A DNA stretch of 64,000 bases from Halalkaliarchaeum desulfuricum (GTDB lineage: Archaea; Halobacteriota; Halobacteria; Halobacteriales; Haloferacaceae). Below the pieces are notes generated by a model. The model saw nothing but the letters and a program-made list of their open reading frames with translations. It ran no database searches and had not been told where the DNA came from. Within the stretch, counting starts at the first letter, position 1; each line of letters starts with the position of its first letter. Below are positions 9,201 through 41,932 of the stretch, one piece after another. The stretch spans positions 806,001-870,000 of the forward strand of contig NZ_CP025066.1 of the NCBI RefSeq assembly GCF_002952775.1, written 5' to 3'. The translations under genes and the position numbers were made by a program.

Positions 9201-9246
9201 AAACCCCCTCCCCACACCGCTCCGTCCTGTTCTCGACTCTCGGCGT

Positions 9247-10250: not shown

Positions 10251-11594
10251 ATGGGACTGTTCGATCGGCTTCGCGGAGCGGACAACCCGCGGGTCGCTTT
10301 TATCGGCATCGACGGCGTGCCGTTCCGGCTCATCGAGAAGCACAGCGACCGCTTCCCGAACCTCGCCGCGCTCGCGTCGGACGGCACCGCGGGGGCGATA
10401 GAGAGCATCGTCCCGCCGGAGTCGAGCGCGTGCTGGCCGGCACTCACCACTGGGAAAAATCCCGGCGAAACCGGCGTCTACGGCTTTCAAGACCGCGAGG
10501 TCGGATCATACGACACGTACGTTCCGATGGGCCGGGACGTCCAGGCGACGCGGGTGTGGGACCGGGTCACCAAGGCCGGGTACGACGCGACCGTGATGAA
10601 CGTCCCGGTGACGTTCCCGCCACAGCGCAACGTCCAGCGGATGGTCTCGGGGTTCCTCTCGCCGGAGATCGACAAGGCCGCCCGCCCGGACGAACTGCGG
10701 GATCGCCTGCAAAAGAACGACTACATCATCGACGTCAACGCCAAACTCGGCCACAAAGACGACAAGACTGCGTTCATGGAGCACGCCCACAAGACGCTCC
10801 GGAAACGCCAGAAAGCGTTTACCCACTACCTGAAGGCCGACGACTGGGACCTGTTTTTCGGCGTGTTCATGACAACCGACCGCGTGAACCACTTCCTGTT
10901 TCGTGATTACGAAAAGAACGGCCCCAACTACGAGGCGTTCATGGAGTTTTACGAGCAACTCGACGAGTACATCGGCGAGATCCGGTCGCTGCTCCCGAAG
11001 GACGTCACCCTTGTCGTCGCCTCCGATCACGGGTTCACCACGCTGAAACACGAGGTCAACTGCAACGAGTGGCTCCGTCGGGAGGGGTGGCTCGAGTACG
11101 AGGGCGACGATCACGACTCGCTTTCGGACATCGACGACGACGCGCAGGCGTACTCGCTCATTCCGGGACGCTTCTATCTCAACCTCGAGGGGCGGGAACC
11201 CCGTGGCAGCGTGCCCGAAGACGACTACGAATCGGTTCGCTCCGAGCTGAAAGCCGACCTCGAGGCGCTCGAGGGACCCGATGGCAAGTCGGTGTGCAAA
11301 CGCATCGTCGATCGCGAAACCGCGTTTCGGGGGGGCCACAGCGAGATCGCCCCCGATCTTGTCGTGATTCCGAACGACGGGTTCGACCTGAAGGCGGGGT
11401 TCAAACCGAAAGAAGAGGTGTTCGCCGCCGGGCCTCGAAACGGGATGCACACCTTCGACGACGCCAGCCTGCTGATCGACGATCCAAGCGCGAACATCGA
11501 GGACGCCGATCTGCTCGACATCGCGCCGACGATTTTGGAACTCATGGACATCGACTACAAGCGGACGACGTTCGACGGCGCCGGCCTCATGTGA
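10251..11594 (+). CDS. Alkaline phosphatase superfamily protein (phosphodiesterase/nucleotide pyrophosphatase type)
   Basis: 447-residue cytoplasmic protein with the metal-hydrolase core of type I phosphodiesterases. The first metal Asp is in GIDGVPFRLIE, the nucleophile region is PESSACWPALTTGKNPGETGVYGF, the second metal site is VASDHGF, and the late His is in NGMHTFDD. Haloarchaeal relatives are usually annotated only as alkaline phosphatase family protein, and some cluster with sulfotransferase or polysaccharide genes. There is no signal peptide. I prefer the ATG at 10251 (MGLFDRLRG). In-frame ATGs at 10242 and 10227 are alternatives. The substrate cannot be told from sequence. Confidence 0.85.
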   Translation: MGLFDRLRGADNPRVAFIGIDGVPFRLIEKHSDRFPNLAALASDGTAGAIESIVPPESSACWPALTTGKNPGETGVYGFQDREVGSYDTYVPMGRDVQATRVWDRVTKAGYDATVMNVPVTFPPQRNVQRMVSGFLSPEIDKAARPDELRDRLQKNDYIIDVNAKLGHKDDKTAFMEHAHKTLRKRQKAFTHYLKADDWDLFFGVFMTTDRVNHFLFRDYEKNGPNYEAFMEFYEQLDEYIGEIRSLLPKDVTLVVASDHGFTTLKHEVNCNEWLRREGWLEYEGDDHDSLSDIDDDAQAYSLIPGRFYLNLEGREPRGSVPEDDYESVRSELKADLEALEGPDGKSVCKRIVDRETAFRGGHSEIAPDLVVIPNDGFDLKAGFKPKEEVFAAGPRNGMHTFDDASLLIDDPSANIEDADLLDIAPTILELMDIDYKRTTFDGAGLM

Positions 11595-27958: not shown

Positions 27959-28537
27959 TCATCCCCGGGGGTCGTACTTATACGTCGCCTCGTCGGGATC
28001 GATGCCGAAGTCCTCCGGCGTCTCTTCGGGACCCGCATCTTCGGCGTCGCGCTCTGCTGCCGACTTGAACCGCTCGCGGAGCCGGTCGGGCATCTCGAAC
28101 CCGTCGACGTCGATCCGCAGCGGCTGAATCTCGTCGCTCACCGTCTCGCGCTTTTCAGTGATTCGCTCGGCGATCGGCGCCGGCAGCTCCTCGGGATCCG
28201 CGAACTCGAAGCCGAACTGGACGAGGTACTCCGGCTGATCAGTGAGCGAGTACACCTCCCCGAACCCCTCGTCGCCCGCTTTCTGGAGGAGTCGCTCGAT
28301 CACGTGGGCGCCGACACCCTGGTCGCGCCAGCCGTCGAGCACGCCGATCCCCGTGATCTCGCAGGCGTCGGGATCCTTGTGGATCCGTATCCGGCCGAAC
28401 CCCGCCCGGGTGTTCGACTCCTCGTCGACCGCGATGACGTAATCGCGCGACCGAAACGCGGCGTCGTCCAGGCCCATCGCCTCGATGTGGTCCAGAAGCC
28501 AGACCTCCTCCCGGTTTCGCGCATCGCGGACGTACAT
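27959..28537 (-). CDS. GNAT-family N-acetyltransferase
   Basis: 192-residue acetyltransferase. Motif A is TGIGVLDGWRDQGVGAHVIERLLQKAGDEGF (about 68-98), followed by EVYSLTDQPEYLVQFGFEFADPEELP, which resembles ArgA- and amino-acid-type GNATs. The C-terminal half is an acidic extension (ERFKSAAERDAEDAGPEETPEDFG) ending in YKYDPRG. I take the ATG at 28537 (MYVRDARN) as start. It lies between tRNA-Gly and the acyl-CoA dehydrogenase gene on the same strand. The acceptor substrate is unknown. Confidence 0.8.
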   Translation of the reverse strand: MYVRDARNREEVWLLDHIEAMGLDDAAFRSRDYVIAVDEESNTRAGFGRIRIHKDPDACEITGIGVLDGWRDQGVGAHVIERLLQKAGDEGFGEVYSLTDQPEYLVQFGFEFADPEELPAPIAERITEKRETVSDEIQPLRIDVDGFEMPDRLRERFKSAAERDAEDAGPEETPEDFGIDPDEATYKYDPRG

Positions 28538-28608
28538 GGTACATCTAACTCCCCCACGGGAGAAATCGTTTGTGGGGAATCGGGCCGTCGGTTGCACTCG
28601 ACTGCGGG

Positions 28609-29757
28609 TTACTCAAGTACGCCCCTGGCGATGATCTCCTTTTGAATCTCCGTGGTTCCCTCGTATATTTCGGTGATCTTGGCGTCCCGATACAGGCGCT
28701 CGACGTCGAACTCCGTGGTGTAGCCGTAGCCGCCGTGGATCTGGACCGCCTCGTTCGTGACCGCCATCGCGGTCTCGCTTGCGTGGTACTTCGCCATCGA
28801 GGCGGCGACGCGGTTGTCCTCGCCGGCGTTCGCCTGCCGGGCCGCCTCCCGGACCAGCAGCCGCGAGGCAGCGATCCGGGTCGCCATCTCGGCGAACTTG
28901 TGCTGGATCGCCTGGATGTCCGCGATCGGCCCGCCGAACTGCTCGCGCTCGCCGGCGTACTCGCGGGCCTCGTCGAACGCCGCCTGCGCCAGCCCAACCG
29001 ACTGGGCGGCGATGCCGATCCGACCGCCAGTGAGGATCCGGAACGCCGCCGAGAGCCCCTTCCCCTCTTCAGTGAGCCGGTTCTCGGCCGGGATCCGCGC
29101 CCCGTCGAACCCCAGCGACGTCGTGTCCGAGGCGCGCAAGCCGAGTTTCTCCTCCTTCTTCCCGACGGTCACCCCCGGCGTGTCGCCAGGAACCAGGAAC
29201 TGCGTGACGCTTCCGGGATCGTCGGGGTCGGTCTTCGCGAAGACGACGTACACACCCGCGCGCTGGCCGTTGGTGATCCACATCTTCTCGCCGTCGAGGA
29301 CGTACTCGTCTCCGTCCCAGCGCGCGACCGTCGACATCTCGGCGGGGTTGGAGCCGGCGTGGGGCTCCGAGAGCGCGAACGCCCCGACCGGCCGGCCGTC
29401 GACCATCTCCGGGAGCCACCGCTCGCGCTGCGCCTCCGAGCCGAACGTCGCGATACAGGAAGTCGCCAGACAGTGGACCGAAAGCGCAGTCGCGACCGCC
29501 AGCTGCCCGTAGGCCACACCCTCGTTGACGACGCTGTAGGTGACGCGACCGGCGTCGAACCCGCCGTACTCCTCGGGAACCGTCAACCCGGTGAGATCCA
29601 GCTCGGCGAGCCCGTCCCAGACGTCCTCGGGGAACGTCTCCGTCGCGTCCGCCTCCCGGGCGCCCGGCCGGATCTCCTCGGTCGCGAACTCGTAGACGAG
29701 ATCCCGGATCGCCCGCTGTTCGTCGGTGAGCGCCGAGTCGCTGGGTGGCAGTGACAT
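28609..29757 (-). CDS. Acyl-CoA dehydrogenase
   Basis: 382-residue standard-length flavoprotein for the first step of beta-oxidation or branched-chain acyl-CoA breakdown. Signature 1 is FALSEPHAGSNPAEMSTVA, then VLDGEKMWITNGQRAGVYVVFAKTD, then signature 2 IQAIQHKFAEMATRIAASRLLVREAA and VQIHGGYGYTTEFDVERLYRDAKITEIYEGTTEI with the catalytic glutamate in YEGT. The start at 29757 (MSLPPSDSALTDEQRAIRD) is the normal family N terminus. It lies 62 bp downstream of the AlaX-type gene on the same strand. Chain-length specificity is not readable. Confidence 0.92.
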   Translation of the reverse strand: MSLPPSDSALTDEQRAIRDLVYEFATEEIRPGAREADATETFPEDVWDGLAELDLTGLTVPEEYGGFDAGRVTYSVVNEGVAYGQLAVATALSVHCLATSCIATFGSEAQRERWLPEMVDGRPVGAFALSEPHAGSNPAEMSTVARWDGDEYVLDGEKMWITNGQRAGVYVVFAKTDPDDPGSVTQFLVPGDTPGVTVGKKEEKLGLRASDTTSLGFDGARIPAENRLTEEGKGLSAAFRILTGGRIGIAAQSVGLAQAAFDEAREYAGEREQFGGPIADIQAIQHKFAEMATRIAASRLLVREAARQANAGEDNRVAASMAKYHASETAMAVTNEAVQIHGGYGYTTEFDVERLYRDAKITEIYEGTTEIQKEIIARGVLE

Positions 29758-29819
29758 GGGCACCGTTTCGCTCCGGCGAAGAAAAAGCCCACTCCCCGAA
29801 AGTGCGGTCCGGTCCCGGG

Positions 29820-31109
29820 TCACTTACCGCGCAGCCAGGCGAGCACCTCCTCGGGATCGGCGCCGAGCCCGCCCCCCTGGGCGAACGTCGGGCCGCCACC
29901 CCCGCCTCCGCCGAACTGGTCGGTGATCTCCTCGACGACTTCGCCCGCCGCGGGCTCGCCGCCGGTGGCGACCACGACGAACGGCGCGTCGCCGTCGCCG
30001 ACGACCGCCGCGACGTCCGGACCGTCGTCCTCGCTGGCGATCTGCGACTGGAGCCGATCGCCGACCTCGTTCGGGCCGAACCCCTCGACTGCACCGACCT
30101 GCCACCGGGCGCCGTCCCTGTCGACCGTCTCGAGCGACGAGAGCCGGGCTTCGAGCACCTCCCCTTTCAGCGACTCGAGTTCCTCCGAGAGCGCGTCGTT
30201 CTCCTCGGCGAGACGGGCGACCGCCTCGGGGAGCTCCTCGATCCCGACGTCGACCTCCCGGGCGGCCGACAGCGCCGCGCGGTGGACCGTCGCGTCGCGC
30301 CGGATCCCGACCGGCCCGACCGCGAACTCGATCCGGGTGAGCCCCTCGCCGGGGTTCGACCGCGAGAGCACCTCCACCGGACCGATCTCTTCGGTGTTCG
30401 AAACGTGGGTTCCCCCGCAGGCGGCCGCGTCCCACGCCGAGCCGTCCAGTGCGAGCGCCTCTTTTGCCTCCTCGGTGTCGAGCTCGCCGAGGTTCCCCCG
30501 CGTGTCGCCGCCGACGGTGACGATCCGGACGGTGTCGGCGCCGGCCATGACACCCTCCTCGGTTTTGGTGTTGAACGCCACCGCCTCGTGATCGCGGGCG
30601 GTCTCGACGTCGACCTCACCCCACGAAACCGGATACGAGTCCCACACCGCACGGTTTGTCAACCGCTCGAGTTCGACGAGTGCGTCGTCGTCGACGTCGG
30701 AGGGCGTCGCGAAGTCGACCCGGACCTTCCGATCGTCGATGTCGAAGCCGCCGTACCCCAGGTCGTCGAACAGCCGCCGCCCGGCTCCGTACAGCACGTG
30801 ACTCGCCGTGTGAGCCCGCATGCAGTACGTCCGGAACGTGTCGTCGACGATGCACTCGACTTCCTGGCCAGGCTCGAACTCGGACTCGAGACCGCCTTCC
30901 GGGGACGCGAGCCCGTGGTGGACCTCGCCATCGACGTCCCACACGTCCGCCACCGCGGTTCCGTCGATGAACCCTCGATCGGCGGGCTGGCCGCCGGAGG
31001 CGGCATAAAAGTACGTCTCGTCCAGCACGACCGCGTCGTCGGTGACGCGATCGACGGTTGCGGAGAACGTTCGAACCGACGGGTCGTCGGGTGCGCGTGA
31101 GCCGGTCAT
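29820..31109 (-). CDS. AlaX-L-type alanyl-tRNA editing protein with DHHA1 domain
   Basis: 429-residue trans-editing factor homologous to the editing half of AlaRS. It hydrolyses mischarged Ser-tRNA(Ala) or Gly-tRNA(Ala). The zinc-binding HTASH (residues 98-102) and CGGTH (near 204-208) motifs are intact. A coiled-coil stretch (AEENDALSEELESLKGEVLEARLSSLE) links to a C-terminal DHHA1 domain ending in FGGGGGGGPTFAQGGGLGADPEEVLAWL, which contacts the tRNA elbow. There is no aminoacylation domain, so it is not AlaRS itself. It is followed by the acyl-CoA dehydrogenase gene. Confidence 0.92.
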   Translation of the reverse strand: MTGSRAPDDPSVRTFSATVDRVTDDAVVLDETYFYAASGGQPADRGFIDGTAVADVWDVDGEVHHGLASPEGGLESEFEPGQEVECIVDDTFRTYCMRAHTASHVLYGAGRRLFDDLGYGGFDIDDRKVRVDFATPSDVDDDALVELERLTNRAVWDSYPVSWGEVDVETARDHEAVAFNTKTEEGVMAGADTVRIVTVGGDTRGNLGELDTEEAKEALALDGSAWDAAACGGTHVSNTEEIGPVEVLSRSNPGEGLTRIEFAVGPVGIRRDATVHRAALSAAREVDVGIEELPEAVARLAEENDALSEELESLKGEVLEARLSSLETVDRDGARWQVGAVEGFGPNEVGDRLQSQIASEDDGPDVAAVVGDGDAPFVVVATGGEPAAGEVVEEITDQFGGGGGGGPTFAQGGGLGADPEEVLAWLRGK

Positions 31110-31206
31110 GTCCGCCGGAACGTGAGCCGGTTCGATAAAACTGTCCCACTGGCGGTACCTGCCGGAGCCTCGCGTCGGTCACGACGGAATCGCCGGGACG
31201 AAACGG

Positions 31207-31728
31207 CTACTCGTCGACCAGTTCCACGTCGAGGCGCTCTTCGACCGCGCGCACGACGGATCCGCCGACGTTCGCGCGGGCGGCCCGGCCCTGTTCGATC
31301 GCCAGCAGGTCGTCCTCGTCGACGTCCAACTCGGCGGCGAGTTCTTCGATGCGGAGCCCGGCGTCCTGTCTGGCACGTTCTGCGCGTTCCCCGTACTCGG
31401 AGACGAGATACGGCAGCCGGTCGCTCTCGTAATCGGTGCCTTCCTTTTCCCAGTGGCTCGAATCGCCCTTGCCAGCGTCGTACATTTTGGCCGCCTGCTG
31501 GGCCGCCCGCTTTTTCCGGCTGGGCTCGTCGTCGTCGCGGGTACTCTCCCGGTCCCGCTTCTTTTCGGACTGCGTTTGGTTGCTTCCGTGGGGCTCACAG
31601 TCGCGACAGACCAGAAGCTCCGCGCCGGCGACGTTGGCGGGCCGGAGATTCCCCGTCTCCCGCCCGCACAGCTCGCAGGCGTCGCCGTCGCCGCCGCCGC
31701 CACCCCCGCCCGTGGAATACTTGGCCAT
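31207..31728 (-). CDS. Archaeal multiprotein bridging factor aMBF1 (zinc ribbon-HTH)
   Basis: 173-residue transcription co-factor homologue. An N-terminal zinc ribbon (C18, C21, C41, C44) follows a poly-glycine run and precedes a charged linker. The C-terminal XRE/Cro-type HTH covers about 108-165 (ARQDAGLRIEELAAELDVDEDDLLAIEQG). The layout matches archaeal MBF1. CTTTAAAAGG on the minus strand (about 31750) lies 25 bp before the ATG, a leaderless promoter. It is divergent from the HTH-CBS gene with an 80-bp shared control region. Confidence 0.9.
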   Translation of the reverse strand: MAKYSTGGGGGGGDGDACELCGRETGNLRPANVAGAELLVCRDCEPHGSNQTQSEKKRDRESTRDDDEPSRKKRAAQQAAKMYDAGKGDSSHWEKEGTDYESDRLPYLVSEYGERAERARQDAGLRIEELAAELDVDEDDLLAIEQGRAARANVGGSVVRAVEERLDVELVDE

Positions 31729-31808
31729 GTGTCCGGGTACGCGCCCGGCCTTTTAAAGCATGGGTCGCGGCCCAAAACCTTATCAATAACTCCTGGTTAT
31801 TTACAGGT

Positions 31809-32348
31809 ATGGAACTGCCGACGCCGCAGGACCTTCGCGAGCGGCGGACCGAACTCGAACTCACCCAGAGCGAACTCGCAGACGCCGCCGAGGTTTCACA
31901 GCCGCTCATCGCCCGGATCGAGGGCGGGGACGTCGACCCGCGGCTGTCGACGCTTCGACGGATCGTGGCCGCCCTCGACGAGGCGGAAGGCGACGTGGTT
32001 CGTGCAAACGACCTGATGCACGAGTCCGTGGTGAGCGTCGAACCCGACGACTCCGTAAGCGAAGCGGTCGACCTGATGGAGCGGGAAGCGTACTCCCAGT
32101 TGCCGGTGTTGCAAAACGGCGTGCCGGTCGGCTCGATCAGCCAGAGCGACGTGATCCACGCCGGCGAGAACGTCGGAAACGAACCCGTAAGCGAGATCAT
32201 GAGCGAGTCGTTCCCGACGGTGTCACAGGACGTGACCGTCGACGAGATCCGGAACCTCCTGGATCACTACAAGGCGGTCGTCGTCACAGAGGGGGGCGAA
32301 GCCGTCGGGATCATCACCGAGGCCGACATCGCCGCCTACCTCTCGTGA
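31809..32348 (+). CDS. HTH-CBS domain transcriptional regulator
   Basis: 179-residue protein. An XRE-type HTH (residues 5-62: LRERRTELELTQSELADAAEVSQPLIARIEGG) is fused to two CBS domains, about 67-122 and 124-179 (MHESVVSVEPDDSVSEAVDLM, MSESFPTVSQDVTVDEIRNLL). CBS pairs bind adenosyl ligands such as AMP or SAM, so this is a likely energy- or SAM-responsive regulator. CCTTATCAATAA (about 31778-31789) is a promoter element 25-30 bp before the ATG. Its TGA overlaps a GTG start of the next gene (GTGA), which makes a tight operon. Confidence 0.9.
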   Translation: MELPTPQDLRERRTELELTQSELADAAEVSQPLIARIEGGDVDPRLSTLRRIVAALDEAEGDVVRANDLMHESVVSVEPDDSVSEAVDLMEREAYSQLPVLQNGVPVGSISQSDVIHAGENVGNEPVSEIMSESFPTVSQDVTVDEIRNLLDHYKAVVVTEGGEAVGIITEADIAAYLS

Positions 32349-32830
32349 GCGAACCCTCGAGATCCATGACACACGACAGTGCGGCTGCGACGGTGACGGT
32401 CCGGGGCGACCGGACGATACTGCTCGCGGACACGCCCGCGGTACGCGAGGAGTACGGCTGGGAGTCCCGGCGGTTTACGATCCACTGCCACACCGGCCGG
32501 ATCGTCACCGGCCGCTGGGCGGGCGTGCCGCTCGGACCCGCGATCGAGGCGGCCGACTTCCCGGACGACACCACCCACGTGCTGGCGACGGGCGGGGACG
32601 GCCACCGGGCGTGCATCGAAATCGGACCGACGCTGGACGGCCTGGTCGGCTTCGTCTGCGAGGAGATCGACCGCGGCCACGACGACGAGTTCGACGACGA
32701 CTGGCGGGACACCCCCCGGCTGCTCTCGCCCGACATCGACTCCGCCCGGACCGTGCGGGACGTGGTGGCGATTACTGCGCTGTCGCTGACCTCCGAGGAG
32801 GACCCAGAGACGTACGAGGCGATTGTCTGA
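32345..32830 (+). CDS. Small protein resembling part of a sulfite-oxidase-type molybdopterin domain
   Basis: 161-residue acidic protein. RRFTIHCHTGRIVTGRWAGVPL followed by an acidic helix and THVLATGGDGHRACIEI recalls the Oxidored_molyb (SUOX) core segment TGxWxGVPLxDLL...DGY. It is far shorter than a full enzyme and the cofactor-binding cysteine is not evident, so it may bind a ligand without catalysis. The GTG at 32345 overlaps the upstream stop (GTGA); an ATG at 32366 is the alternative start. Coupling to the HTH-CBS regulator suggests a joint function. Confidence 0.55.
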   Translation: MSEPSRSMTHDSAAATVTVRGDRTILLADTPAVREEYGWESRRFTIHCHTGRIVTGRWAGVPLGPAIEAADFPDDTTHVLATGGDGHRACIEIGPTLDGLVGFVCEEIDRGHDDEFDDDWRDTPRLLSPDIDSARTVRDVVAITALSLTSEEDPETYEAIV

Positions 32831-32894
32831 CCGACAGAGCGGACAGGATTCGACCGCCTGAGCGACTTATCCGTTCGGCGCCCGTAGTTGTCCT

Positions 32895-33350
32895 ATGGAC
32901 GAACCGAGAACGGGTGATGCATCCGAGATACGGACAGTCCTCATTTACGACGGCGAGTGTCCGTACTGTTCGATCGCGGCGACTGCGGTCCGTCGGCTCG
33001 AGGACGTCGCAGTCGTCTCGTGGTACGACGACGCCGCCCAGGAGTTCTTGACGGCGCAGTTCGGGGAGGCGCCGTTCGCGATGGTGCTCGTCGACGCCGA
33101 CGAGAGGCGCGTTTACGCGGGCCGCAAAGCAGCGCGTGAGCTCGCCGACCGAGCGGGCACACCCAAACTGGTCGGATCGCTCGTTCGGGACAACTACGAG
33201 CGGATCGCCTCGGCGATCGGTCGCGCCAGCGGTCGCGACCGCGAGGCGGCTCCGTACCACGAGGAGTACCCGCTCGAGGAGGCGGCCGCCCAGCGGTTCG
33301 ACGCGCTCGCGGCCGCCGCACGCGAGGCGATCCCGGAGGGACTACGGTAA
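32895..33350 (+). CDS. DCC/DUF393-family thiol-disulfide protein
   Basis: 151-residue protein beginning, after a short lead, with VLIYDGECPYCSIAATAVRRL. The YDGxCxxC motif (C22, C25) defines the DCC thioredoxin-like family. It has a thioredoxin-like strand order and a helical C-terminal region (DREAAPYHEEYPLEEAAAQRFDAL). It is predicted to act in disulfide exchange; the partner is unknown. It stands 64 bp after the preceding gene and 20 bp before the DUF123 gene, so it may be co-transcribed with the latter. Confidence 0.85.
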   Translation: MDEPRTGDASEIRTVLIYDGECPYCSIAATAVRRLEDVAVVSWYDDAAQEFLTAQFGEAPFAMVLVDADERRVYAGRKAARELADRAGTPKLVGSLVRDNYERIASAIGRASGRDREAAPYHEEYPLEEAAAQRFDALAAAAREAIPEGLR

Positions 33351-33370
33351 CGCGGGTTCGATCGGCGACG

Positions 33371-33847
33371 ATGACCGAACCGAGTTCGACCCAAGAGGGC
33401 CCTCCGTCGAACGGCACATACACGCTCCTGGTCGCCGTCACCGAGCGGTTCGAGGCCGAGGTCGGAGCGCTGGGCAGGAAACGGTTCGACGCGCCGGTTT
33501 ACTGTTATACGGGGAGCGCATTTGGGACCGGCGGGTTCGGCCGGATCGACAGACACCGACGGCTCGCCGCCGGCGAGAGCGACGCCCGACACTGGCACGT
33601 CGATTACCTCCTCGGCCATCAGGCGACGACGCTTGCGGGAGTCGTCAAAACCCACGGCGAGGACGTCGAATGCGTCGTCGCGCGACGGCTCGGCGACGGA
33701 CCGATTTCGGGGTTCGGTGCGTCCGACTGCGACTGCCCGAGCCACCTCGTCTCCCGGGAGGGTTTCGACGCCGCGATCGCGGAAGTACAGACAGTCCACG
33801 CCGACATCGTCGATGCTGCAGCCGTCACTGTCGAACAGTTCGAGTGA
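33371..33847 (+). CDS. DUF123 (GIY-YIG-like) domain protein
   Basis: 158-residue protein. GTYTLLVAV (about residues 15-23), YCYTGSAFGTGGFGRIDRHRRL and HWHVDYLL are the hallmark elements of DUF123, a GIY-YIG-nuclease-like domain sometimes fused to endonuclease III. The usual GIY tyrosine is present in GTYTLL, and the metal-side residues are uncertain. DCDCPSHL supplies a small Cys/His cluster. It may act in DNA repair or be structural. A strong hairpin follows at 33860. Confidence 0.82.
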   Translation: MTEPSSTQEGPPSNGTYTLLVAVTERFEAEVGALGRKRFDAPVYCYTGSAFGTGGFGRIDRHRRLAAGESDARHWHVDYLLGHQATTLAGVVKTHGEDVECVVARRLGDGPISGFGASDCDCPSHLVSREGFDAAIAEVQTVHADIVDAAAVTVEQFE

Positions 33848-34144
33848 TACCCGAAAACTGCCGACGTGGCCGGACGCCGGGCACACAGTCCGGCCGGTCG
33901 GCGTTTCGTGACGCGATCGTCCGGGCAAACGATCGCACGCCGGGAACGACAGGGCGGTCGGGCAGAACGTCCCGTCGTCGGCTGCCGGATGTCAGAGGCA
34001 CCCCGGCACCGATGAACATGGCGTTTTTCGTATTTACGTTATCTGTTGCAGATCTGATCAAGATATGAATATACTATTAAAAAACTTCCTTTTATTTATA
34101 ACTAATACCGGTGTTTGAAGGCGAGTATATAACTCCGACCGGGC
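33848..34144. other. Convergent intergenic region, AT-rich on the right
   Basis: 297 bp between convergent genes with no gene I can support. The left part has a strong hairpin and further GC-rich inverted repeats. From about 34020 the sequence turns strongly AT-rich (several TTTATTTATA and ATATGAATATAC runs), unlike the chromosome average. Confidence 0.6.
33860..33902. terminator. Strong hairpin after the DUF123 gene
   Basis: GCCGAC-GT-GGCCGGAC (33860-33875), a 12-nt loop, and GTCCGGCC-G-GTCGGC (33888-33902) form a 14-bp stem with a small bulge. It starts 13 bp after the DUF123 stop and is followed by GTTTCG. It is a likely transcript 3'-end structure. Confidence 0.45.
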
Positions 34145-34711
34145 CTACTCGTACAGCGAACAGACGAACGGCCCGAGCGCACCGGCGACAGCCTGCGAGA
34201 GCGCCTCGGCGCGGTCTATCCGGCCGCCGGTGAACACCCCCGCTGCACCCTGCTTTTTGGCGATTTCGCTGGTTCCCAGGACGTCGTCCATCACCGGACC
34301 CAGCTCCTCGCCGGCGTCGATTCGATCGACGATCCTCGCCGGGAGGGCGATACTCGGCCCGGCCGCGACCCCGACACGATCGCCGTCGGTCACAGCCGCC
34401 CACATGACGAGAAACCGCCCGTCACGGCCGACGATACGCTCCCGACTGACGTGATCGCGCCCCGAAAACGTCGCCACGCCGCCCTCGATCCCGACGCCGA
34501 GATCGTACTTGCCTGTCGCGTACGCTCGTTCGGCGCGGACCTCCGCGCCGGTGCACGTCTCCGCGTGGCCGGTCGGCTGTTCGTCGACTCCGGAGTCGAC
34601 CTCGACCGGTTCGACGTCGGCCCCATCGCCGAAGTCGTCCGCGTCGCTTTCGATCGCCAGCTGTACCGCCCGGCGCTTCACGGGATTCGTGCTCCCGACG
34701 GCGACTCGCAT
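34145..34711 (-). CDS. DUF84 inosine/xanthosine triphosphatase
   Basis: 188-residue house-cleaning NTP pyrophosphatase/phosphatase that removes ITP and XTP. VAVGSTNPVKRRAV (residues 3-16) is the YjjX/DUF84 nucleotide-binding start. VDSGVDEQPTGHAETCTGAEVRAERAY and GVGIEGGV, then GTSEIAKKQGAAGVFTGGRIDRAEAL, complete the family pattern. I chose the ATG at 34711. The corrinoid-binding protein gene lies 26 bp upstream on the same strand, so they form a short operon. Confident at family level. Confidence 0.9.
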   Translation of the reverse strand: MRVAVGSTNPVKRRAVQLAIESDADDFGDGADVEPVEVDSGVDEQPTGHAETCTGAEVRAERAYATGKYDLGVGIEGGVATFSGRDHVSRERIVGRDGRFLVMWAAVTDGDRVGVAAGPSIALPARIVDRIDAGEELGPVMDDVLGTSEIAKKQGAAGVFTGGRIDRAEALSQAVAGALGPFVCSLYE

Positions 34712-34737
34712 GTCGAGAGGACCGTCCGGAACCGCGT

Positions 34738-35484
34738 TCAGTCTTCCGGATGCAGTCGATCGGAAAGCAGCTCGATCCCGTCGAGCAGCCGCGGGCTCGG
34801 CTGGTTCAACAGGGAGTCGTCGACGACGTGGATTTCGGGGTCGACGCCCCATCCCCTGCCCGCGATCCGGTCGGGCGAGACGCGGTCGCCGTGTCCACAG
34901 ACGTGCAACACCGCGTGGTCGGGATCTGCGTTTTCGACGGTTTCCCGTCGGATCTCCCGCGAGCGCTCCCCCGGAGACACGAAGGGATACCGGCCGCCCG
35001 CGGCCCGGACCGCGTCGGGGACCCAGTTGCCCGCCGCCATCGGCGGATCCGACCATTCCTCACAGTAGACGACGGGGCGGTCCCGGTCGGCGACCCGCGT
35101 TTCCACGGCGTCGAGACGCTCTCGCGACGCGCGGGCGAGTCTCGTTCCGGCGTCGGTCTCGCCGAGTACCTCCCCGAGCGCTTCGAACCCCTCGATAACG
35201 TCGTCGAGCCGGGCGGGTTCCCGATGGACGACGTCGTACCCCCGGTCGTGGAGTTCCTCGCGGATCTCACGCTGGAGTTCGTCGCTCGTACAGACGACCG
35301 CGGGGTCGATCTCGCGGATCCGGTCGTACGACGGGTTCAACCAGCCGCCGACTCTCGTGACGTCGGCCCTCTCCGCGTCCACCGAACAGTGTGTGGTCAC
35401 GCCCGCGAGCCGATCCGTCAGGCCCATCGCCGCGATCGTCGCGGTCGCGCTCGGTGCCAGCGAGACGATCGGTGACGCGTTCAT
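34738..35484 (-). CDS. BtuF-like cobalamin-binding (class III periplasmic-binding fold) protein
   Basis: 248-residue protein of the Fe3+-hydroxamate/cobalamin-binding fold: IVSLAPSATATIAAMGLTDRLAGVTTHC, a SYDRIREIDPAVVCTSDELQREI segment and VYCEEWSDPPMAAGNWVPDAVRAAGG. No signal peptide or lipobox is visible, so unlike a true ABC substrate-binding lipoprotein it should be cytoplasmic. Haloarchaea have such soluble BtuF-like proteins, possibly linked to corrinoid salvage. No ABC transporter genes are adjacent. It starts with an ATG at 35484 close to a CTTATAAACC element. Confidence 0.85.
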   Translation of the reverse strand: MNASPIVSLAPSATATIAAMGLTDRLAGVTTHCSVDAERADVTRVGGWLNPSYDRIREIDPAVVCTSDELQREIREELHDRGYDVVHREPARLDDVIEGFEALGEVLGETDAGTRLARASRERLDAVETRVADRDRPVVYCEEWSDPPMAAGNWVPDAVRAAGGRYPFVSPGERSREIRRETVENADPDHAVLHVCGHGDRVSPDRIAGRGWGVDPEIHVVDDSLLNQPSPRLLDGIELLSDRLHPED

Positions 35485-35928
35485 TATCGGGTGATAGCGG
35501 CGTGAGCTTATAAACCGGTGTGGACGCCCCGGGTCGGCAGGGTGGCTGCGATCTCGGAGGTCGTCTAGATCTCGACCGATCGCCAGGAACACCTCGGCGA
35601 TGTCGAAGCAGTCCCGGAGGAGACGATCGGGCGCGCCGAGTACAGGGATGTCCCCGAACCACAGGGCATTATGGAAACGAGTTCGGGACGATCTGCGAGC
35701 GCGAACAGCAGGCCCACCACCGGGTCGTGGAAGGACAGATGAGCCGCGGTCACCGACAGTTGCTGGAGTTTGTCGATCCGGCCGAACACCGGTCGGAGTC
35801 CGGAGAGTATCCCCGAGTGTGCGAACGACGACAATACAGTGGAGGACAACGCCGGTAACTCGATCCGGCAAACGCCGAAACACATCGAAACTGGGAACTA
35901 TTCGAGTACGAAATACGTACTCGTTCAA
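35485..35928. other. 444-bp gap with possible decayed minus-strand membrane-protein remnant
   Basis: No intact gene. On the minus strand, ALWFGDIPVLGAPDRLL...DIAEVFLAIGRDL (about 35680-35560) and, in another phase to the right, a hydrophobic stretch containing VTAAHLSFHDPVVGLLFALA (about 35780-35690) read like pieces of one small membrane protein, vaguely DUF5317-like, joined by a frameshift. This is weak. The right end carries the promoter and inverted repeat of the F420 ligase-like gene. Confidence 0.3.
35903..35923. promoter_or_regulatory. Inverted repeat just before the F420 ligase-like gene
   Basis: CGAGTACG (35903-35910), spacer AAATA, CGTACTCG (35916-35923): perfect 8-bp arms ending 5 bp before the ATG at 35929. 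The position suits an operator or a translational hairpin. Confidence 0.5.
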
Positions 35929-37119
35929 ATGACAGGCATTCCTGACTACGTGGGCCCGTGTGCCTTCGGCATCGAAATGGGCGTTCTCCTCCCGGGATGT
36001 GACCTCCAGTCACAGGTCATCGAAGCGCTGGAAGAGGTCGTCGAAGACGGATTCCTCACGGACGGGGACACGATCTGTCTGACCGAATCGGTGGTCGCTC
36101 GTTCACAGAACAACTACGTAACGAAGGCGGAGATCGCCCAGGAGATCCGCGAGGGTTGCACGCTCACTCCGGAACAGACGATCGGCGTCGTCTTCCCGAT
36201 CACAAGCCGCAACCGCTTTGTTCCGATCCTCGCAGGCATAAGCCGGGCCGTCCCGGACGGCAAGGTCATCGTGCAACTGCAATATCCGACAGATGAGGTC
36301 GGAAACCGAACGCTCCCACCCGAGGTTGCAGCGGAACTCGAAGCGGAGACGGACGACCATATCACGACAGACGACCTCGACCGGCGCTACCCGCATCCGA
36401 TAACGGAGATCGATTACATCCAGCTGTACCGGGAGACGATTGCCGAAGAGGGTGCGGAACCGACGATCTTCTTGAGCAACGATCCGGAGAGGATTCTCGA
36501 ATATCAGCCGGACGCTGTCATCGTCTCGAACGTCCACGAGCGAGAGAAGACTCGAGAAGCTGTGGCCGCATATCACGATAACGTATTGACACTACAGGAG
36601 TTGGCTAACGACGAGACAAACGACGCGTGGTCGGAGTGGGGGTTACTCGGCAGCAATATGTCCTCGGGCGAGAAGATAAAACTCGCCCCACGTCGGGCGG
36701 ACCAGTTTGCCGTCGAATTACAGGAGCGTATCGACGACGAGTTCGACAAACAGGTCCACGTCATCATCAATGGAGATGGCGCGTACAAAGATCCGAGCAG
36801 CGGCATCTACGAGCTCGCCGACCCCTGTGCCGTCTTCGGAGCGACGCCGGATCTCGAAGATACACTCCGGGGAGGTGTCAAATACAAGTTCCTCGTCGAC
36901 AAGTATCACGAGGAAGAAAAATCCAGAGAAGAGATCTCGGAGATACTGGCGGCGGAAGCCGAGGAGCATCACGTGGAGAGTAGCATCGAATCAGAGGGAA
37001 CGACTCCCCGCCAACTTCAGAATATTATCGCCAGCCTGGCCGACCTGCTGACCGGATCTGCCGACGCCGGAACCCCGCTCGTTCTGGTCAAAGGCATAAC
37101 GGGGAGTTCGAACGACTGA
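35929..37119 (+). CDS. Coenzyme F420-0:L-glutamate ligase-like protein (bacterial-type long form)
   Basis: 396-residue protein, far longer than the ~250-residue CofE that makes F420 in archaea. MGVLLPGCDLQSQVIEALEEVVEDGFLTDGDTICLTESVVARSQNNYVT and IGVVFPITSRNRF...VIVQLQYPTDEVGN match the F420_ligase-fold proteins found mostly in Firmicutes and other bacteria, whose reaction is not settled. Base composition is lower in GC than its neighbours. It sits alone between a degenerate gap and an adenosylhomocysteinase remnant, next to a tRNA-end duplication, so I infer transfer. The frame is open further left, but the ATG at 35929 fits the family start and the adjacent inverted repeat. Confidence 0.72.
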   Translation: MTGIPDYVGPCAFGIEMGVLLPGCDLQSQVIEALEEVVEDGFLTDGDTICLTESVVARSQNNYVTKAEIAQEIREGCTLTPEQTIGVVFPITSRNRFVPILAGISRAVPDGKVIVQLQYPTDEVGNRTLPPEVAAELEAETDDHITTDDLDRRYPHPITEIDYIQLYRETIAEEGAEPTIFLSNDPERILEYQPDAVIVSNVHEREKTREAVAAYHDNVLTLQELANDETNDAWSEWGLLGSNMSSGEKIKLAPRRADQFAVELQERIDDEFDKQVHVIINGDGAYKDPSSGIYELADPCAVFGATPDLEDTLRGGVKYKFLVDKYHEEEKSREEISEILAAEAEEHHVESSIESEGTTPRQLQNIIASLADLLTGSADAGTPLVLVKGITGSSND

Positions 37120-37318
37120 TACTGTCTGTTGGGGGAAGTTACCGTTTCGACCGCCAGACGGACCGCTTCCGCAGAAAACCGTGGAGTCCGCCCTTTCCAC
37201 CTGATTATCATTTCGTAGTGGATCAACCCGTTTCTCGGCTGTTGAGCCGTTAATTAAATAGTGGCCTGGGAAACCCAGGATCAGTAACGATCCTCAACAG
37301 TTTTGCACCCACGTACCG
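37120..37318. other. Non-coding gap with small inverted repeats
   Basis: Nothing gene-like. CTGGGAAACCCAG (37265-37277) is a small hairpin, and GTGGA...TCCAC (37182-37201) another. It lies between the F420 ligase-like gene and the ahcY remnant. Confidence 0.5.
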
Positions 37319-37667
37319 GCTGATACGTGTGATCGATCTCGACGACGAGGGGGCGATCGCGGACGTGTGCGATCGGGATCTCTGCGCCGCTTACGCTGCT
37401 CGTCGGCGGCCGGGTCGTCAACCTGACTGCCCCGGGCAGTGCGGGCAATCCGAGCGAGGTGATTGACACGACGTCGCGTTGATGACCCGGGGGCTGGCGA
37501 AACTCGCTGGCGATCCCGGCCTCGAACCGGAGCTCCATCCGTTTCCCGCTCGGTTCGACAGAGAGGTCGCCGCTGAGAAACTGGCGGCGATGGACGTTTC
37601 GATCGACGAGATCACCGCCGCTCAACGACGATACCACGAACAGTGGGAGGAACACGACGACGAATGA
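37319..37667 (+). pseudogene. Degraded C-terminal end of adenosylhomocysteinase
   Basis: GGRVVNLTAPGSAGNPSEVIDTT (about 37405-37475) stops at a TGA, and the match resumes in another phase as MMTRGLAKLAGDPGLEP...PFPARFDREVAAEKLAAM..SIDEITAAQRRYHEQW (37479-37667). Together they follow the S-adenosylhomocysteine hydrolase tail (GRLVNL-GHP-EVMD ... VP-LD-EVA-KL ... LT-EQ-YL--W). The NAD-binding and catalytic parts are absent. The open part could make a 62-residue peptide, but I read it as a remnant. It abuts the first copy of the 77-bp repeat. Confidence 0.6.
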
Positions 37668-37668
37668 T

Positions 37669-37745
37669 ATTCGAATCCTTCTCGCAGAACATTCCGCACT
37701 GCTCGCTTCGCTCGCAGGCGGAATGGGCTCGGGCGGATTCGAACC
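37669..37745. repeat. 77-bp direct repeat, distal copy (carries tRNA-Val 3' end duplicate)
   Basis: Identical to 37794-37870. Bases 37724-37745 duplicate the last 22 nt of the tRNA-Val gene (T-arm half and acceptor 3' strand); 37669-37723 duplicate its downstream flank. It looks like an attachment-site remnant or a small segmental duplication. Confidence 0.85.
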
Positions 37746-37793
37746 ACGGTCGCTCCCGTTCGCTCGCGTTGCTCGCTCACCTCCCGCTCTCTA

Positions 37794-37870
37794 ATTCGAA
37801 TCCTTCTCGCAGAACATTCCGCACTGCTCGCTTCGCTCGCAGGCGGAATGGGCTCGGGCGGATTCGAACC
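37794..37870. repeat. 77-bp direct repeat, proximal copy (overlaps tRNA-Val)
   Basis: Perfect copy of 37669-37745, overlapping the 3' 22 nt of tRNA-Val. The 48-bp spacer between the copies is built of CGCTC/GCTCGC motifs. The flank includes GCTCGCTTCGCTCGC, the reverse complement style of the purine repeats beside tRNA-Gly. Confidence 0.85.
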
Positions 37871-37921
37871 GCCGATCTCGTCCTTGTAAGGGACGCGTCA
37901 TAACCACTAGACCACGAGCCC
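37849..37921 (-). tRNA. tRNA-Val (anticodon TAC)
   Basis: 73-nt tRNA read leftwards. GGGCTCG pairs with CGAGCCC, the D-arm contains AGTGGTTATGA, the anticodon loop is CTTACAA (TAC), and the T-arm is GGCGGTTCGAATCCGCC, with discriminator A and no encoded CCA. There is no intron. Its 3' end is duplicated 125 bp downstream. Confidence 0.95.
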
Positions 37922-38014
37922 GCATTCGAACCCACCCGTCCCGAGCGAATAACGCTTTCCTTCTCGAACGAACCGGACGACACGCTCATACGTCGGTCGC
38001 TCCACGATCCCCCC

Positions 38015-38527
38015 GTGAACGATCGGGTTCTCGTTGCCGCCGCAATCGCTGTCCTCCTCCTCGCGGGGATAGCGGTCGGGCTGAGTCTCGGCCTCCACGA
38101 ACGCGGGGAGTACGAGTGGACCACGGTCACGATCGAGGACGGCGACACCGGAGACCGACTCGCGACCGTCGACGCCCGGATCGCCGACACGCCGGAAAAA
38201 CGGTACACCGGGCTCTCGAACACCGGGGAGCTGGCACCCGAGGAGGGAATGTGGTTCGTTCACGACGAACCCGGCACCTACGGCTACGTCATGCGAGACA
38301 TGTCGTTCCCGATAGACATCGTCTTCGTCGATGCGGACGGGACGATCACGACGATCCACGAGGCGCCCGTCGAGGAGGACCAGTCGTCGCTCACCACCTA
38401 CACTGGCTACGGACAGTTCGTGCTCGAAGTGAACCTCGGATTCACCGACGATTACGGCATCGAGGAAGGAGACCGGGTGAGAGAGCCGATCTACTCCCCT
38501 GCGGACGAACGGGACGAGACCCCCTGA
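38015..38527 (+). CDS. DUF192 family secreted or membrane-anchored protein
   Basis: 170-residue protein. An N-terminal hydrophobic segment (VLVAAAIAVLLLAGIAVGLSLGL, residues 5-27) is a signal anchor. The DUF192 domain (about 40-155) contains TPEKRYTGLSNTGELAPEEGMWFVHDEPGTYGYVMRDMSFPIDIVFVDADG, the family signature. The function of DUF192 is not established. The start is the GTG at 38015, directly before the hydrophobic helix. It is followed 43 bp later by the rhomboid gene on the same strand, and probably co-transcribed. Confidence 0.88.
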   Translation: MNDRVLVAAAIAVLLLAGIAVGLSLGLHERGEYEWTTVTIEDGDTGDRLATVDARIADTPEKRYTGLSNTGELAPEEGMWFVHDEPGTYGYVMRDMSFPIDIVFVDADGTITTIHEAPVEEDQSSLTTYTGYGQFVLEVNLGFTDDYGIEEGDRVREPIYSPADERDETP

Positions 38528-38570
38528 CAGTACCGACTACTTCAAGGGAACAGGGAAACACGTTCGTGGT

Positions 38571-40298
38571 ATGGTAACGGAGTGGTTCCCGCTCCAGCGG
38601 CTCGCGGTCGTCGCCGCGGCCCTCCTCGCGTTCGCCATCGTCTATGCAGTCGACCGGCCTCGTGGAGCATGGGGGCGGACCCTCCGCTCCCGATTGTTGT
38701 TGGGCCTCCCGTGGGGGACGCTCGTTTCCCTCGGATTCGTCCTGCTGGTGTACCTGTTCGTCCAGGGCGGGGCCGAAAACTGGCACAATCCGGTGGTGTT
38801 GCCGTTCCGGGCGTGGTCGTACTTCTACCCGCTGGGAATGGTGACGGCGGGCTTTTCGCATGCGAGTGCGGGACACCTGATCGGCAACCTGCTGGGTGCG
38901 CTGGTGCTCGGTACCCTCGCTGAATACGCCTGGGGACATTTCCCACAATCGAGGGGGACCTCGTCGTTCAGTTCGTGGAAAACGAATCCGTACGTCCGGG
39001 CGTTCCTGATCGTCCCCGGTGCGGTGATCGGCGCCGGGCTCCTCACGTCGCTGTTCTCGATCGGTCCAGTGATCGGCTTTTCGGGTGTCGTCTTCGCGTT
39101 CGGTGGGTTCGCACTCGCCTTCTATCCGCTGGGGACGATCGTCGCTCTGTCGGCGAGCACGCTCGTCCGGTTGGTGTACAACGCGATGCGCCACCCGGAA
39201 CTCGTCGCCAGTGCAGACTGGGTGTACCAGACGCCCTCGTGGGCGACGATCGCGATCCAGGGTCACGCACTCGGGCTGTTCGTGGGGCTGCTCGTCGGGC
39301 TGTATCTTCGTCGCCGTCGGGGTGACCTCCCCTCTGCGCTCCGGCTCGGGACCGGCGTGTTGCTGTACGGCGCGGCGCGATCCCTGTGGGCGGTGTACTG
39401 GTACCGCGGCGGCGAGACGTACGTGCTCTATCGGGCAATCGGGCTGGCGCTCGTGATCCTGCTTGCGACGCTCGTCGTGCTCGCGGGCGCAACCCGCGAT
39501 GAACCGCTGTCGATGCCGACCCTGCCGGCAATGCCGTCCACCCCGTCGATACCGGCTCTGCCGTCGGTTTCATCACGGCTCTCGCTTCCCTCGGTTTCGA
39601 CATCGAACGCGCGTTCCGGAACCACACCGGCGGCGATCGGGTTCGTGCTCCTCCTTATGGGCGCGGCAATGATCGCTGGGCCGGCAATCCCGGTGAACCT
39701 CGTCACCGCCGACGAGGAACCCTTGCCCGGTGATCCGATCGAAGTCCGGGACTATCAGGTGACGTACGCAGAGGACATCACCGACGGGATGGTCGACGTG
39801 ATCGACGTCGAACTGTTCGGCGAAACAACCACCGTCGAAACCTCCGGCGTCATCGTGAAAAGCCAGGAGCGACACCTCTGGACCACCGCGGTCTCGAAGA
39901 ACCGCCTGCGTGGCTCCGGACAGGAGCGGATCGGACTCGGGGGTCTCGGCTGGCGCGACTCGGTGTCCGTCCATCGCACTGGCTGGCAGGTCGTCGGGGG
40001 GGATCGGGTTTACCGGGTAGAACTCGAACACGACGAGGACCGCCAGGTCGCGTTCACCTCGACCGGATCCCACGCTCAGCCCCGCGTCGACGGCCGGAAC
40101 GTCACGGTCGTCTCCTGGGCGGACGGGTTCCACCTGCTGGTCGCCCACGACGGCGGGATCGAGACGGTGCAGATACCGGAGACGAACGAGTCGGTCGAGG
40201 CGATGGGCGTGCAGTTCGCCCGCGAGGAGGACGACCTGTTCGCGGAACGGGGCGAGACTCGGGTTCGGATCGCCGCGAAGGAGACGTATCGGAGATGA
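38571..40298 (+). CDS. Rhomboid-family intramembrane serine protease
   Basis: 575-residue polytopic membrane protease. The rhomboid core spans about 45-250: HLIGN (H102, N106), the catalytic GFSG (S171) and the partner H232 in IQGHALG. An extra helix follows, then a Ser/Pro-rich linker (MPTLPAMPSTPSIPALPS, about 306-323), one more helix (365-385) and a C-terminal beta-rich domain of about 190 residues facing outside. The large extra domain is a haloarchaeal addition of unknown role. It converges with secD. Confidence 0.92.
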   Translation: MVTEWFPLQRLAVVAAALLAFAIVYAVDRPRGAWGRTLRSRLLLGLPWGTLVSLGFVLLVYLFVQGGAENWHNPVVLPFRAWSYFYPLGMVTAGFSHASAGHLIGNLLGALVLGTLAEYAWGHFPQSRGTSSFSSWKTNPYVRAFLIVPGAVIGAGLLTSLFSIGPVIGFSGVVFAFGGFALAFYPLGTIVALSASTLVRLVYNAMRHPELVASADWVYQTPSWATIAIQGHALGLFVGLLVGLYLRRRRGDLPSALRLGTGVLLYGAARSLWAVYWYRGGETYVLYRAIGLALVILLATLVVLAGATRDEPLSMPTLPAMPSTPSIPALPSVSSRLSLPSVSTSNARSGTTPAAIGFVLLLMGAAMIAGPAIPVNLVTADEEPLPGDPIEVRDYQVTYAEDITDGMVDVIDVELFGETTTVETSGVIVKSQERHLWTTAVSKNRLRGSGQERIGLGGLGWRDSVSVHRTGWQVVGGDRVYRVELEHDEDRQVAFTSTGSHAQPRVDGRNVTVVSWADGFHLLVAHDGGIETVQIPETNESVEAMGVQFAREEDDLFAERGETRVRIAAKETYRR

Positions 40299-40333
40299 GT
40301 TGTCCCGTCGGTCGGTGACCACGAAGAAACCGG

Positions 40334-41932
40334 CTAGCGGTGAGTGAGACCGCGCCGGAGGATGTCCCCGTACGCGGGCCGGGTGATCAAGACGCCGACG
40401 AGCACGCCCAGGATGGTGAAGATTGCGAACCCGGAGAGGTCACCCAGCGAGAGGATCATCAGTGGCGACATCGCGATGATGGTGGTCGCGGCGGCGGCGC
40501 CGATCACCCAGAACGCCCGCCTGAACCGCGAGTCGAACACCTTCCTGGATTTCACCTCGCCTTCGCTCATCACCTCGTCGGCGATGATCACGAGGTCGTC
40601 CACCCCCGTACCGACCACGGCGATGAAGCCGGCGACGACGGCCAGGTCGACCGGGTACTGAACCAGTGCGGCGAACCCGAGCAGGATGTACACCTCCGAG
40701 AACGCGGTCACAGTCATCGGAAGCGCGACCTTGGGCTGGCGGTAACGGAGGAACACCATGCCCGCCACCGCGAGCACCGCGAGGGCGCCGATGATCACGC
40801 CGAACAGCCGGAAGTTCTCGCCCTGGGTGGGGGAAATGAACGAGGAAGTCCCCTGTTCGATGCCCAACTGTGCCGGGATCGCTCCGGCCCGGAGGTTCAG
40901 CGAGATGCGCTGGGCGTCATCGAAGTCGGTCGCCATCAGCCGGAAGCCGGGATCGTTCGCCCAGGAGCCGTCACGCATGCTGTCCGCCAGTCCCGGCTGC
41001 ATCCCGAACGCGTTGACGACCTCGTCGTCGACAACGAGCAGGAGACACGGATCGACCGTCTCGCCGACGCCGTCTTCCTCGCTGAAGTAGGTACACTGGG
41101 AACCGCCCGGTTGGGCGACGCCGAACTCGGCGGCAGCGTCCTGGAACCGCTCGGCCGCCGGGTTACCCTCCTCGTTGACGACCGACACCGGCACGTACGG
41201 CCGGTCAGCTTCGTCGCGCTGGGCGGTGCCGATGTTCTCGAAGTCGTCCTGTACCAGAACCGACCGTTCGGTCGAGTAGCCGTCCTCGACCTCGTCGTCC
41301 GGGTAGTAGATGTCGATCCGGACCGTCCCGCGTTCTTCGATGAGTTCGATGACGTCGCTTCTGTCCTCACCCGGCACTTCGACCAACAGGAAGTGTTCAC
41401 CCGCACCGGGATCGAACACTTGCCGGACGCTCCCACCCGAGAGTCCGGCCTCGTTGATCTTCCCGTCGATCACCCTGATCGCCGCCGAGCGCGTCTCGTC
41501 GGTGACACCCGGCGAGATCGAGTCGTACGGGTAGCCTGCCGCCTCGAGCGCGCCCGCAAACTCCTCGCGGCCGACCCCCGCGTCGGTCACTTCGACCTCA
41601 CCGCCGTCCTCGGTGCGCTGTTCGACGTTGACGTCGGTCGAGTCGGTGTCAGGCAGTTCGTTCGCGACGTTTTGGGCGACCTGTGAGGGGGTGTCTCCAC
41701 CGAATTCGACGCCGTCGGCGACGAACCCGAGGAGGGGTGCACGGATCCGCGTACCGCCCGCCAGATCCAGCCCGTACTGGAGGTTTGTAAGCCCTTCAGA
41801 CGCCTGTTGCTCGACGTCGTCTCCTTCGACGACGTCGGGCGACTCAGGCGCCATCGTCGGCGAGAACAACGCGAACGTCGCCGCGAGAATGAAGACGGCG
41901 AGCAACAGCAGCCGCCAGTTCTCCTTGATCAT
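40334..41932 (-). CDS. secD: Protein-export membrane protein SecD
   Basis: 532-residue component of the SecDF accessory complex, which uses the ion gradient to pull proteins through the Sec channel. The first helix is at 9-30, then LDLAGGTRIRAPLLG (the conserved D1 motif near 55), and a large outer P1 domain. The C-terminal bundle of about five helices contains the D5-like VGTGVDDLVIIADEV. The start overlaps the secF stop (ATGA), so secF-secD are translated together, secF first, as is usual in haloarchaea. Confidence 0.95.
   Translation of the reverse strand: MIKENWRLLLLAVFILAATFALFSPTMAPESPDVVEGDDVEQQASEGLTNLQYGLDLAGGTRIRAPLLGFVADGVEFGGDTPSQVAQNVANELPDTDSTDVNVEQRTEDGGEVEVTDAGVGREEFAGALEAAGYPYDSISPGVTDETRSAAIRVIDGKINEAGLSGGSVRQVFDPGAGEHFLLVEVPGEDRSDVIELIEERGTVRIDIYYPDDEVEDGYSTERSVLVQDDFENIGTAQRDEADRPYVPVSVVNEEGNPAAERFQDAAAEFGVAQPGGSQCTYFSEEDGVGETVDPCLLLVVDDEVVNAFGMQPGLADSMRDGSWANDPGFRLMATDFDDAQRISLNLRAGAIPAQLGIEQGTSSFISPTQGENFRLFGVIIGALAVLAVAGMVFLRYRQPKVALPMTVTAFSEVYILLGFAALVQYPVDLAVVAGFIAVVGTGVDDLVIIADEVMSEGEVKSRKVFDSRFRRAFWVIGAAAATTIIAMSPLMILSLGDLSGFAIFTILGVLVGVLITRPAYGDILRRGLTHR

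Follow-up and report, generated by a model that had tools for sequence, protein, structure and literature searches.

The insert beside the tRNA-Val gene

The window, which is the whole stretch of DNA analyzed here, comprises 64,000 nucleotides of the Halalkaliarchaeum desulfuricum genome (NZ_CP025066.1, positions 806,001 to 870,000). It contains a gene that starts with an ATG at position 35929, ends with a TGA at 37117-37119 and encodes a protein matching the Pfam family PF01996 (F420_ligase; E-value 4.8e-35, 121.5 bits, gathering cut-off 25 bits). Coordinates of the features are collected in Table 1. Since residues 14-389 are spanned by a model of 218 positions, the protein is a true long form with its extra length located internally. 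The gene has a GC content of 0.579 and a GC3 of 0.71, compared to 0.641-0.691 and 0.82-0.89 for the six surrounding genes, confirming the lower GC content noted in the initial annotation.

Table 1. Features at and around the long-form gene, given in window positions.
Feature	Position	Strand	Remarks
Insert absent from congener G001, about 2.1-2.2 kb	35527-37668		collinear flanks; right edge uncertain, 37668-37725
Perfect 8-bp inverted repeat, 5-nt spacer	35903-35923		putative regulatory role; frequency at chance level
Long-form F420_ligase-family gene	35929-37119	+	396 aa, ATG start; Pfam match, AlphaFold2 model, invariant columns
Codons of inserted alpha/beta domain, residues 80-236	36166-36636	+	absent from CofE; perhaps HUP/USP-like
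Adenosylhomocysteinase C-terminal remnant	37390-37668	+	broken, frame-shifted; directly downstream of the long-form gene
77-bp exact direct repeat, inner copy	37669-37745		contains tRNA-Val 3' end
77-bp exact direct repeat, outer copy	37794-37870		runs into tRNA-Val
tRNA-Val(tac)	37849-37921	-	possible landing site; adjoins insert

Comparison with the congener G001 showed that the window is collinear with this genome from 28000 to 35526 (89% identity) and from 37795 to 41660 (87%), where the outer limits reflect the choice of stretches for comparison, and that between these flanks only repeats of the tRNA flank match. The segment in between is an insert with a GC content of 0.588. The H. desulfuricum genome consists of one contig; thus the insert is not a stray contaminant contig. 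It is bracketed by a Peripla_BP_2 gene (34738-35484, minus strand) and a DUF192 gene (38015-38524, plus strand), the latter being matched in all 12 genomes searched, its own included.

The stretch of the insert left of the gene (35527-35928) was analyzed in two pieces, neither of which has a Pfam match. The adenosylhomocysteinase remnant matches positions 371-414 of TIGR00936 (E 1.8e-5), whereas its match to the Pfam family AdoHcyase (E 0.056) is below the cut-off. Aligned to the intact adenosylhomocysteinase resident in the genome, it gives two linked tblastn pieces (sum E 2e-10) with 41% (over 44 residues) and 50% identity; the later part is 37% identical to a Methanocalculus adenosylhomocysteinase over 43 residues.

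The 77-bp repeat carrying the tRNA-Val 3' end, together with a related extra copy in the congener, suggests a past integration at this tRNA gene. Both copies are located to the right of the insert, and no copy of the tRNA 3' end was found to its left within 35300-38100; likewise, none of the five translated pieces of the insert has a Pfam match to an integrase. In G001, the tRNA-Val 3' end is likewise duplicated beside the gene (L120, 7856-8282), there as a 16-bp-spaced repeat, and the tRNA-Val region is possibly an integration hotspot.

The initial annotation had described a perfect inverted repeat located 5 bp upstream of the start codon and had proposed dedicated control. The repeat is indeed present (CGAGTACG-aaata-CGTACTCG, arms 35903-35910 and 35916-35923) and is the sole exact copy genome-wide. 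The window contains 24 perfect 8-bp inverted repeats with spacers of 3-10 nt; in 20 windows simulated by a first-order Markov model, their number averaged 20.1 (range 13-32). The repeat is therefore at chance level and carries no weight as an operator, and we rejected it as an argument for dedicated control. The DNA hairpin energy at the repeat has a z-score of -3.57, calculated for a stretch picked because it contains the repeat. A scan with a sigma-70-type promoter model, which is not apt for archaea, gave no site at the gene start.

Family membership, distribution and transfer

A Pfam search of the genome detected three F420_ligase genes. One of them, at C1:2556708, encodes CofE proper: this protein of 251 amino acids reaches 269.9 and 340.2 bits and passes both curated CofE cut-offs (TIGR01916, 180.65; NF009809, 274). 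The window protein is 145 residues longer, consistent with the length difference claimed initially, and reaches only 37.2 bits (TIGR01916) and 39.9 bits (NF009809). Because a separate cofE is encoded elsewhere, the long-form gene does not encode the normal enzyme of this genome, and its identification as the normal CofE was rejected. As cofD is also present, H. desulfuricum itself probably makes F420. The third gene (C1:2488264-2488983) encodes a short paralogue of 284 amino acids, which scores 170.1 bits against the CofE cut-off of 180.65 and lacks the DTxGRPxR stretch found in the CofE of this genome; this paralogue was not found in G001, which has a single PF01996 match.

Full-length homology, the inserted domain, the motifs SRNRF, DEVGN and GTTPR and the position in the tree place the window protein in the GPCAFG clade (clade A) of the long-form PF01996 family. 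Its homologues are unnamed proteins of about 390-400 amino acids from Bacillota, Methanocalculus and others, to which it is 34-61% identical over the full length and with which it shares the invariant residues. Of 53 columns without variation among 62 relatives it retains 52, and it deviates at 5 of the 110 columns with at least 90% conservation within its own clade. In contrast to these proteins the window protein is haloarchaeal and strongly acidic, with a net charge of -47 compared to -10 to -20 in eight non-haloarchaeal relatives. We take this composition to be an adaptation to the salt-rich cytoplasm, suggestive of a long residence as an expressed protein. The gene has been kept intact in this haloarchaeon.

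To the extent sampled here, no other haloarchaeon carries the gene. A protein search of 40 relatives found it only in its own genome, and the same was true for 391 Halobacteria genomes (up to four candidates scored per genome), where the 390 others, including G001, gave no match. In a search of 294 genomes of the phylum (up to six candidates per genome), full-length matches outside its own genome were confined to four Methanocalculus genomes (53-54% identity); two additional hits were weak (E about 5e-4), aligned over no more than 60-70 residues and fell in CofE-like frames. For the wider search of named genomes, an alignment of the window protein with five methanogen sequences was used as query; 140 loci were confirmed and the best 80 kept, mainly from Bacillota, in agreement with the initial statement that similar proteins occur mainly in Firmicutes. 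These loci were found by two peptide patterns only, and distant members of clade B are under-sampled. Among these best 80 of 140, the closest relatives are two proteins from Bacillota MAGs (61%), followed by a Syntrophomonadaceae protein (56%), the sample name of which, CSSed, presumably denotes soda-lake sediment; the methanogen long forms are 52-55% identical.

The phylogeny was calculated from 46 rows, including 8 of the 46 clade B rows as outgroup and leaving out the partial sequences L047 and L048; a first quick tree, with its careful search incomplete, had left out the duplicates L009 and L010 and the window's own loci L003 and L004. The window protein is sister to the two Bacillota proteins (support 93/90), and the enclosing group (100/99) consists of these three, the Syntrophomonadaceae protein and the Methanocalculus-type methanogen proteins. 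It does not nest within haloarchaeal CofE. The complete long-form profile finds a match in 22 of 199 Methanomicrobiales genomes, from 4 of 38 genera. A distribution restricted to saline habitats was not upheld by these counts and by the many relatives whose record titles name animal guts. Single-sequence scans of genome contigs and viral contigs gave no match, and the phage and plasmid collections contributed one record each.

Lateral transfer into the haloarchaeon, as proposed initially, is well supported by the distribution, the insert relative to the congener, the tree and the lower GC and GC3 of the gene. The source pool would comprise Bacillota and Methanocalculus-type organisms. No functional study of the long-form family was found in the literature searched, which covered few subscription journals. 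The window protein adds a member, the first from a haloarchaeon in this sample, to a family that is known and widespread but apparently uncharacterized.

Predicted structure and active site

An AlphaFold2 model of the window protein, computed with 63 sequences, has a pLDDT of 92.7. Structural comparison of this model identified Af-CofE (2phn, 7uld and 2g9i) with Z-scores of 15.8-16.4 over 181-190 residues, the next row following at 7.6. The superposition of the cores is loose (rmsd 3.3-4.2 Å, 19-21% identity); the predicted core fold and the order of its elements are those of CofE (TIGR01916), and the proteins align over their full length with insertions. The long-form and CofE profiles match with an hhalign probability of 98.9 (E 3.5e-17).

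The major difference from CofE is the alpha/beta domain, which in the model is inserted between the two halves of the CofE core. Predicted alone, it reaches a pLDDT of 96.4. Its best Foldseek matches are universal stress proteins (E 5.7e-5, prob 1.00), to which it aligns with a Z-score of 8.7 over 112-117 residues (VIA), a value close to the background of 7-8 and tied with other Rossmann-like folds. These matches suggest a possible HUP-type nucleotide-binding fold. Residues 84-235 contain 16 of 52 family-invariant residues, including those of SRNRF and DEVGN, which is about the share expected from length and no excess.

Two residues of CofE motifs are replaced in the long form. The aspartate of the CofE motif NAGxDxSN (Asp109 in Af-CofE), which we take to be a metal ligand, aligns with a conserved leucine (L240), and the glutamate of SKAEG aligns with a glutamine. 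These replacements leave room for a different metal site and for altered chemistry. In CofE, glutamate attacks a phosphorylated carboxylate with the help of two Mn ions and GTP, and F92, G153-C155 and R234 of Af-CofE contact F420 (PMC10861534); around these residues the match of the long-form and CofE profiles is loose.

Carrier genomes, gene neighborhoods and candidate substrates

To assess possible substrates, 53 genomes were searched for cofD, folC, moaC and PF01996: 48 from the best 80 loci, four from other carriers and that of the non-carrier G001, with bacteria and archaea assigned from the record titles. Most of the carriers searched are MAGs by title, and a missing cofD or folC may partly reflect incompleteness. 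CofD was found above the cut-off in 12 of the 53 genomes, which title or kinship identifies as archaeal throughout; not one of the 38 bacterial carriers reaches it. Weak matches below the cut-off (best E 1.2e-6) were obtained for 13 of these 38, as they were for some control genomes such as E. coli. No other PF01996 match is present in 33 of the 38; extra F420_ligase matches were seen in the bacterial carriers G644, G658, G670 and G676, of which that in G644 is strong (E 2.0e-57), whereas those in the other three are weak and partial. Given the lack of cofD above the cut-off and of a further F420_ligase match in most bacterial carriers, F420-0 is probably not the substrate there, which lends indirect support to the non-F420 substrate proposed in the initial annotation. 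Since cofD and cofE are both present in H. desulfuricum, a substrate related to F420 is possible in this host.

The operon-like neighborhood of the long form was evaluated in 48 of 84 loci, with 103 of 125 directon genes included (117 remained after length filters, and 14 more were left out). Among the matches listed for the first 25 families, MobA-like NTP transferases are the commonest Pfam family (10), followed by TatC (6) and YqeC (4), with two each for 5-formyltetrahydrofolate cyclo-ligase, GMP synthase, ABC_tran and Amidohydro_1. The ten MobA-like neighbors comprise six MobA-type genes in one Bacillota clade and four YqeC/MocA fusions. Two themes, one-carbon metabolism and the molybdenum cofactor, emerge from these neighborhoods, and each of them rests on few lineages.

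The long form might be a one-carbon cofactor ligase, lengthening the glutamate tail of folate or of a methanopterin-type carrier and thereby supporting the SAM cycle; we regard this as unlikely. In three of ten methanogen loci (L007, L008 and L018) a methionine adenosyltransferase gene is followed by the long form, OpuAC and a methyltransferase, which is closest to sarcosine/dimethylglycine N-methyltransferase and scores below the cut-off of that model; in the one locus that extends far enough, adenosylhomocysteinase is next. This locus, L018 (5701-11618) of Methanocalculus chunghsingensis, encodes methionine adenosyltransferase, long form, betaine-type binding protein, methyltransferase and adenosylhomocysteinase; a possible function of this cluster is to make glycine betaine while recycling SAM. 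The adenosylhomocysteinase remnant adjoining the long-form gene in the window may echo this cluster or may be coincidence. A 5-formyltetrahydrofolate cyclo-ligase gene lies directly upstream of the long form in L056 and L064, and in the two closest relatives folC precedes the long form on the same strand, by 0.7 kb (L014) and 3.0 kb (L015). Against a role of this kind, the remnant is no closer to the Methanocalculus enzyme than to the resident one, seven of the ten methanogen loci have no methionine adenosyltransferase gene in the stretch covered, and in L015 a ribonucleotide reductase gene separates folC from the long form. Moreover, folC is already present above the cut-off in 34 of the 38 bacterial carriers (38 of all 53 genomes), and a long form substituting for FolC was not upheld.

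A precedent for a substrate other than F420 exists in the same superfamily. The chlamydial COG1478 protein CT611 (FolC2) is assumed here to belong to TIGR04132, the model for putative folate gamma-glutamate ligases (cut-off 350 bits), to which the window protein gave no match at E up to 1. By complementation, CT611 rescues an E. coli folC mutant (PMC1971073).

A role in the molybdenum or tungsten cofactor (pterin) or in selenium-dependent maturation, for example amidation or glutamylation of an intermediate, appears rather unlikely, although the MobA-like families top the neighbor counts. In L068 (Mageeibacillus sp. UBA5439, 4695-10435) the long form is embedded in the order yedF, small gene, TIGR01977-type desulfurase (361.9 bits, just below the cut-off of 377), long form, yqeB and yqeC/mocA. 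According to PMC2276186, genes of these types are among the accessory genes of selenium-dependent molybdenum hydroxylases; the words F420 and ligase are absent from the main text of that paper. In L049, a gene of the aldehyde ferredoxin oxidoreductase family and a MoeB-like gene lie downstream of the long form. These associations come from about three lineages, however, and the one MobA-type protein scanned singly remained below the MobA cut-offs; no such neighbor was identified beside the window gene. MoaC was found above the cut-off in only 34 of the 53 genomes, and unless the MAGs are badly incomplete molybdopterin is not upheld as a family-wide substrate. A broader proposal would see the long forms, mostly of anaerobes, as an unrecognized cofactor-tailoring ligase whose CofE core and HUP-like domain together attach an amino acid to a cofactor of the pterin type, be it molybdopterin, the selenium-dependent form of molybdopterin or a one-carbon carrier. 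The haloarchaeon would have acquired this step beside a tRNA gene; we consider this proposal a speculative idea with a low probability.

That the transferred gene is dying and without function in this host is quite unlikely. The rest of the insert looks decayed, with its adenosylhomocysteinase remnant and a left part lacking Pfam matches, and only one Halobacteria genome carries the gene, but the open reading frame is full-length, and the near-complete set of invariant columns and the acidic composition speak for a maintained protein. That the protein works as a second CofE and attaches glutamates to F420 is very improbable: superfamily and core fold are those of CofE, and the host as well as Methanocalculus-type genomes have cofD and short cofE-type genes, but the scores lie far below the CofE cut-offs, the bacterial carriers lack cofD above the cut-off and the host already has a CofE.

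The reading that we favor, and hold to be fairly probable, is that of a laterally acquired long-form PF01996 protein acting as a nucleotide-dependent amide ligase on a non-F420 carboxylate. Judged by fold and profile homology, amino acid ligase chemistry of the window protein is probable. With a divalent metal and a nucleoside triphosphate, the CofE-type core, interrupted by the inserted domain, would phosphorylate the carboxylate of a small molecule other than F420-0 and subsequently join it to an amino acid, perhaps glutamate. The inserted alpha/beta domain would probably recognize the substrate or the nucleotide. The gene would have entered from a pool of Bacillota and Methanocalculus-type organisms and settled beside the tRNA-Val gene together with part of an adenosylhomocysteinase gene, which would have decayed afterwards while the long-form gene was retained intact.

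Taken together, the locus offers a clear example of gene acquisition by a haloarchaeon, for which a matching insert-free site is available in a congener. Long-form proteins can be mislabeled as F420 ligases, yet cofD above the cut-off is missing from all 38 bacterial carriers searched. Concrete candidate substrates are suggested by the conserved residues, by the inserted domain and by the neighbors that recur in this family.
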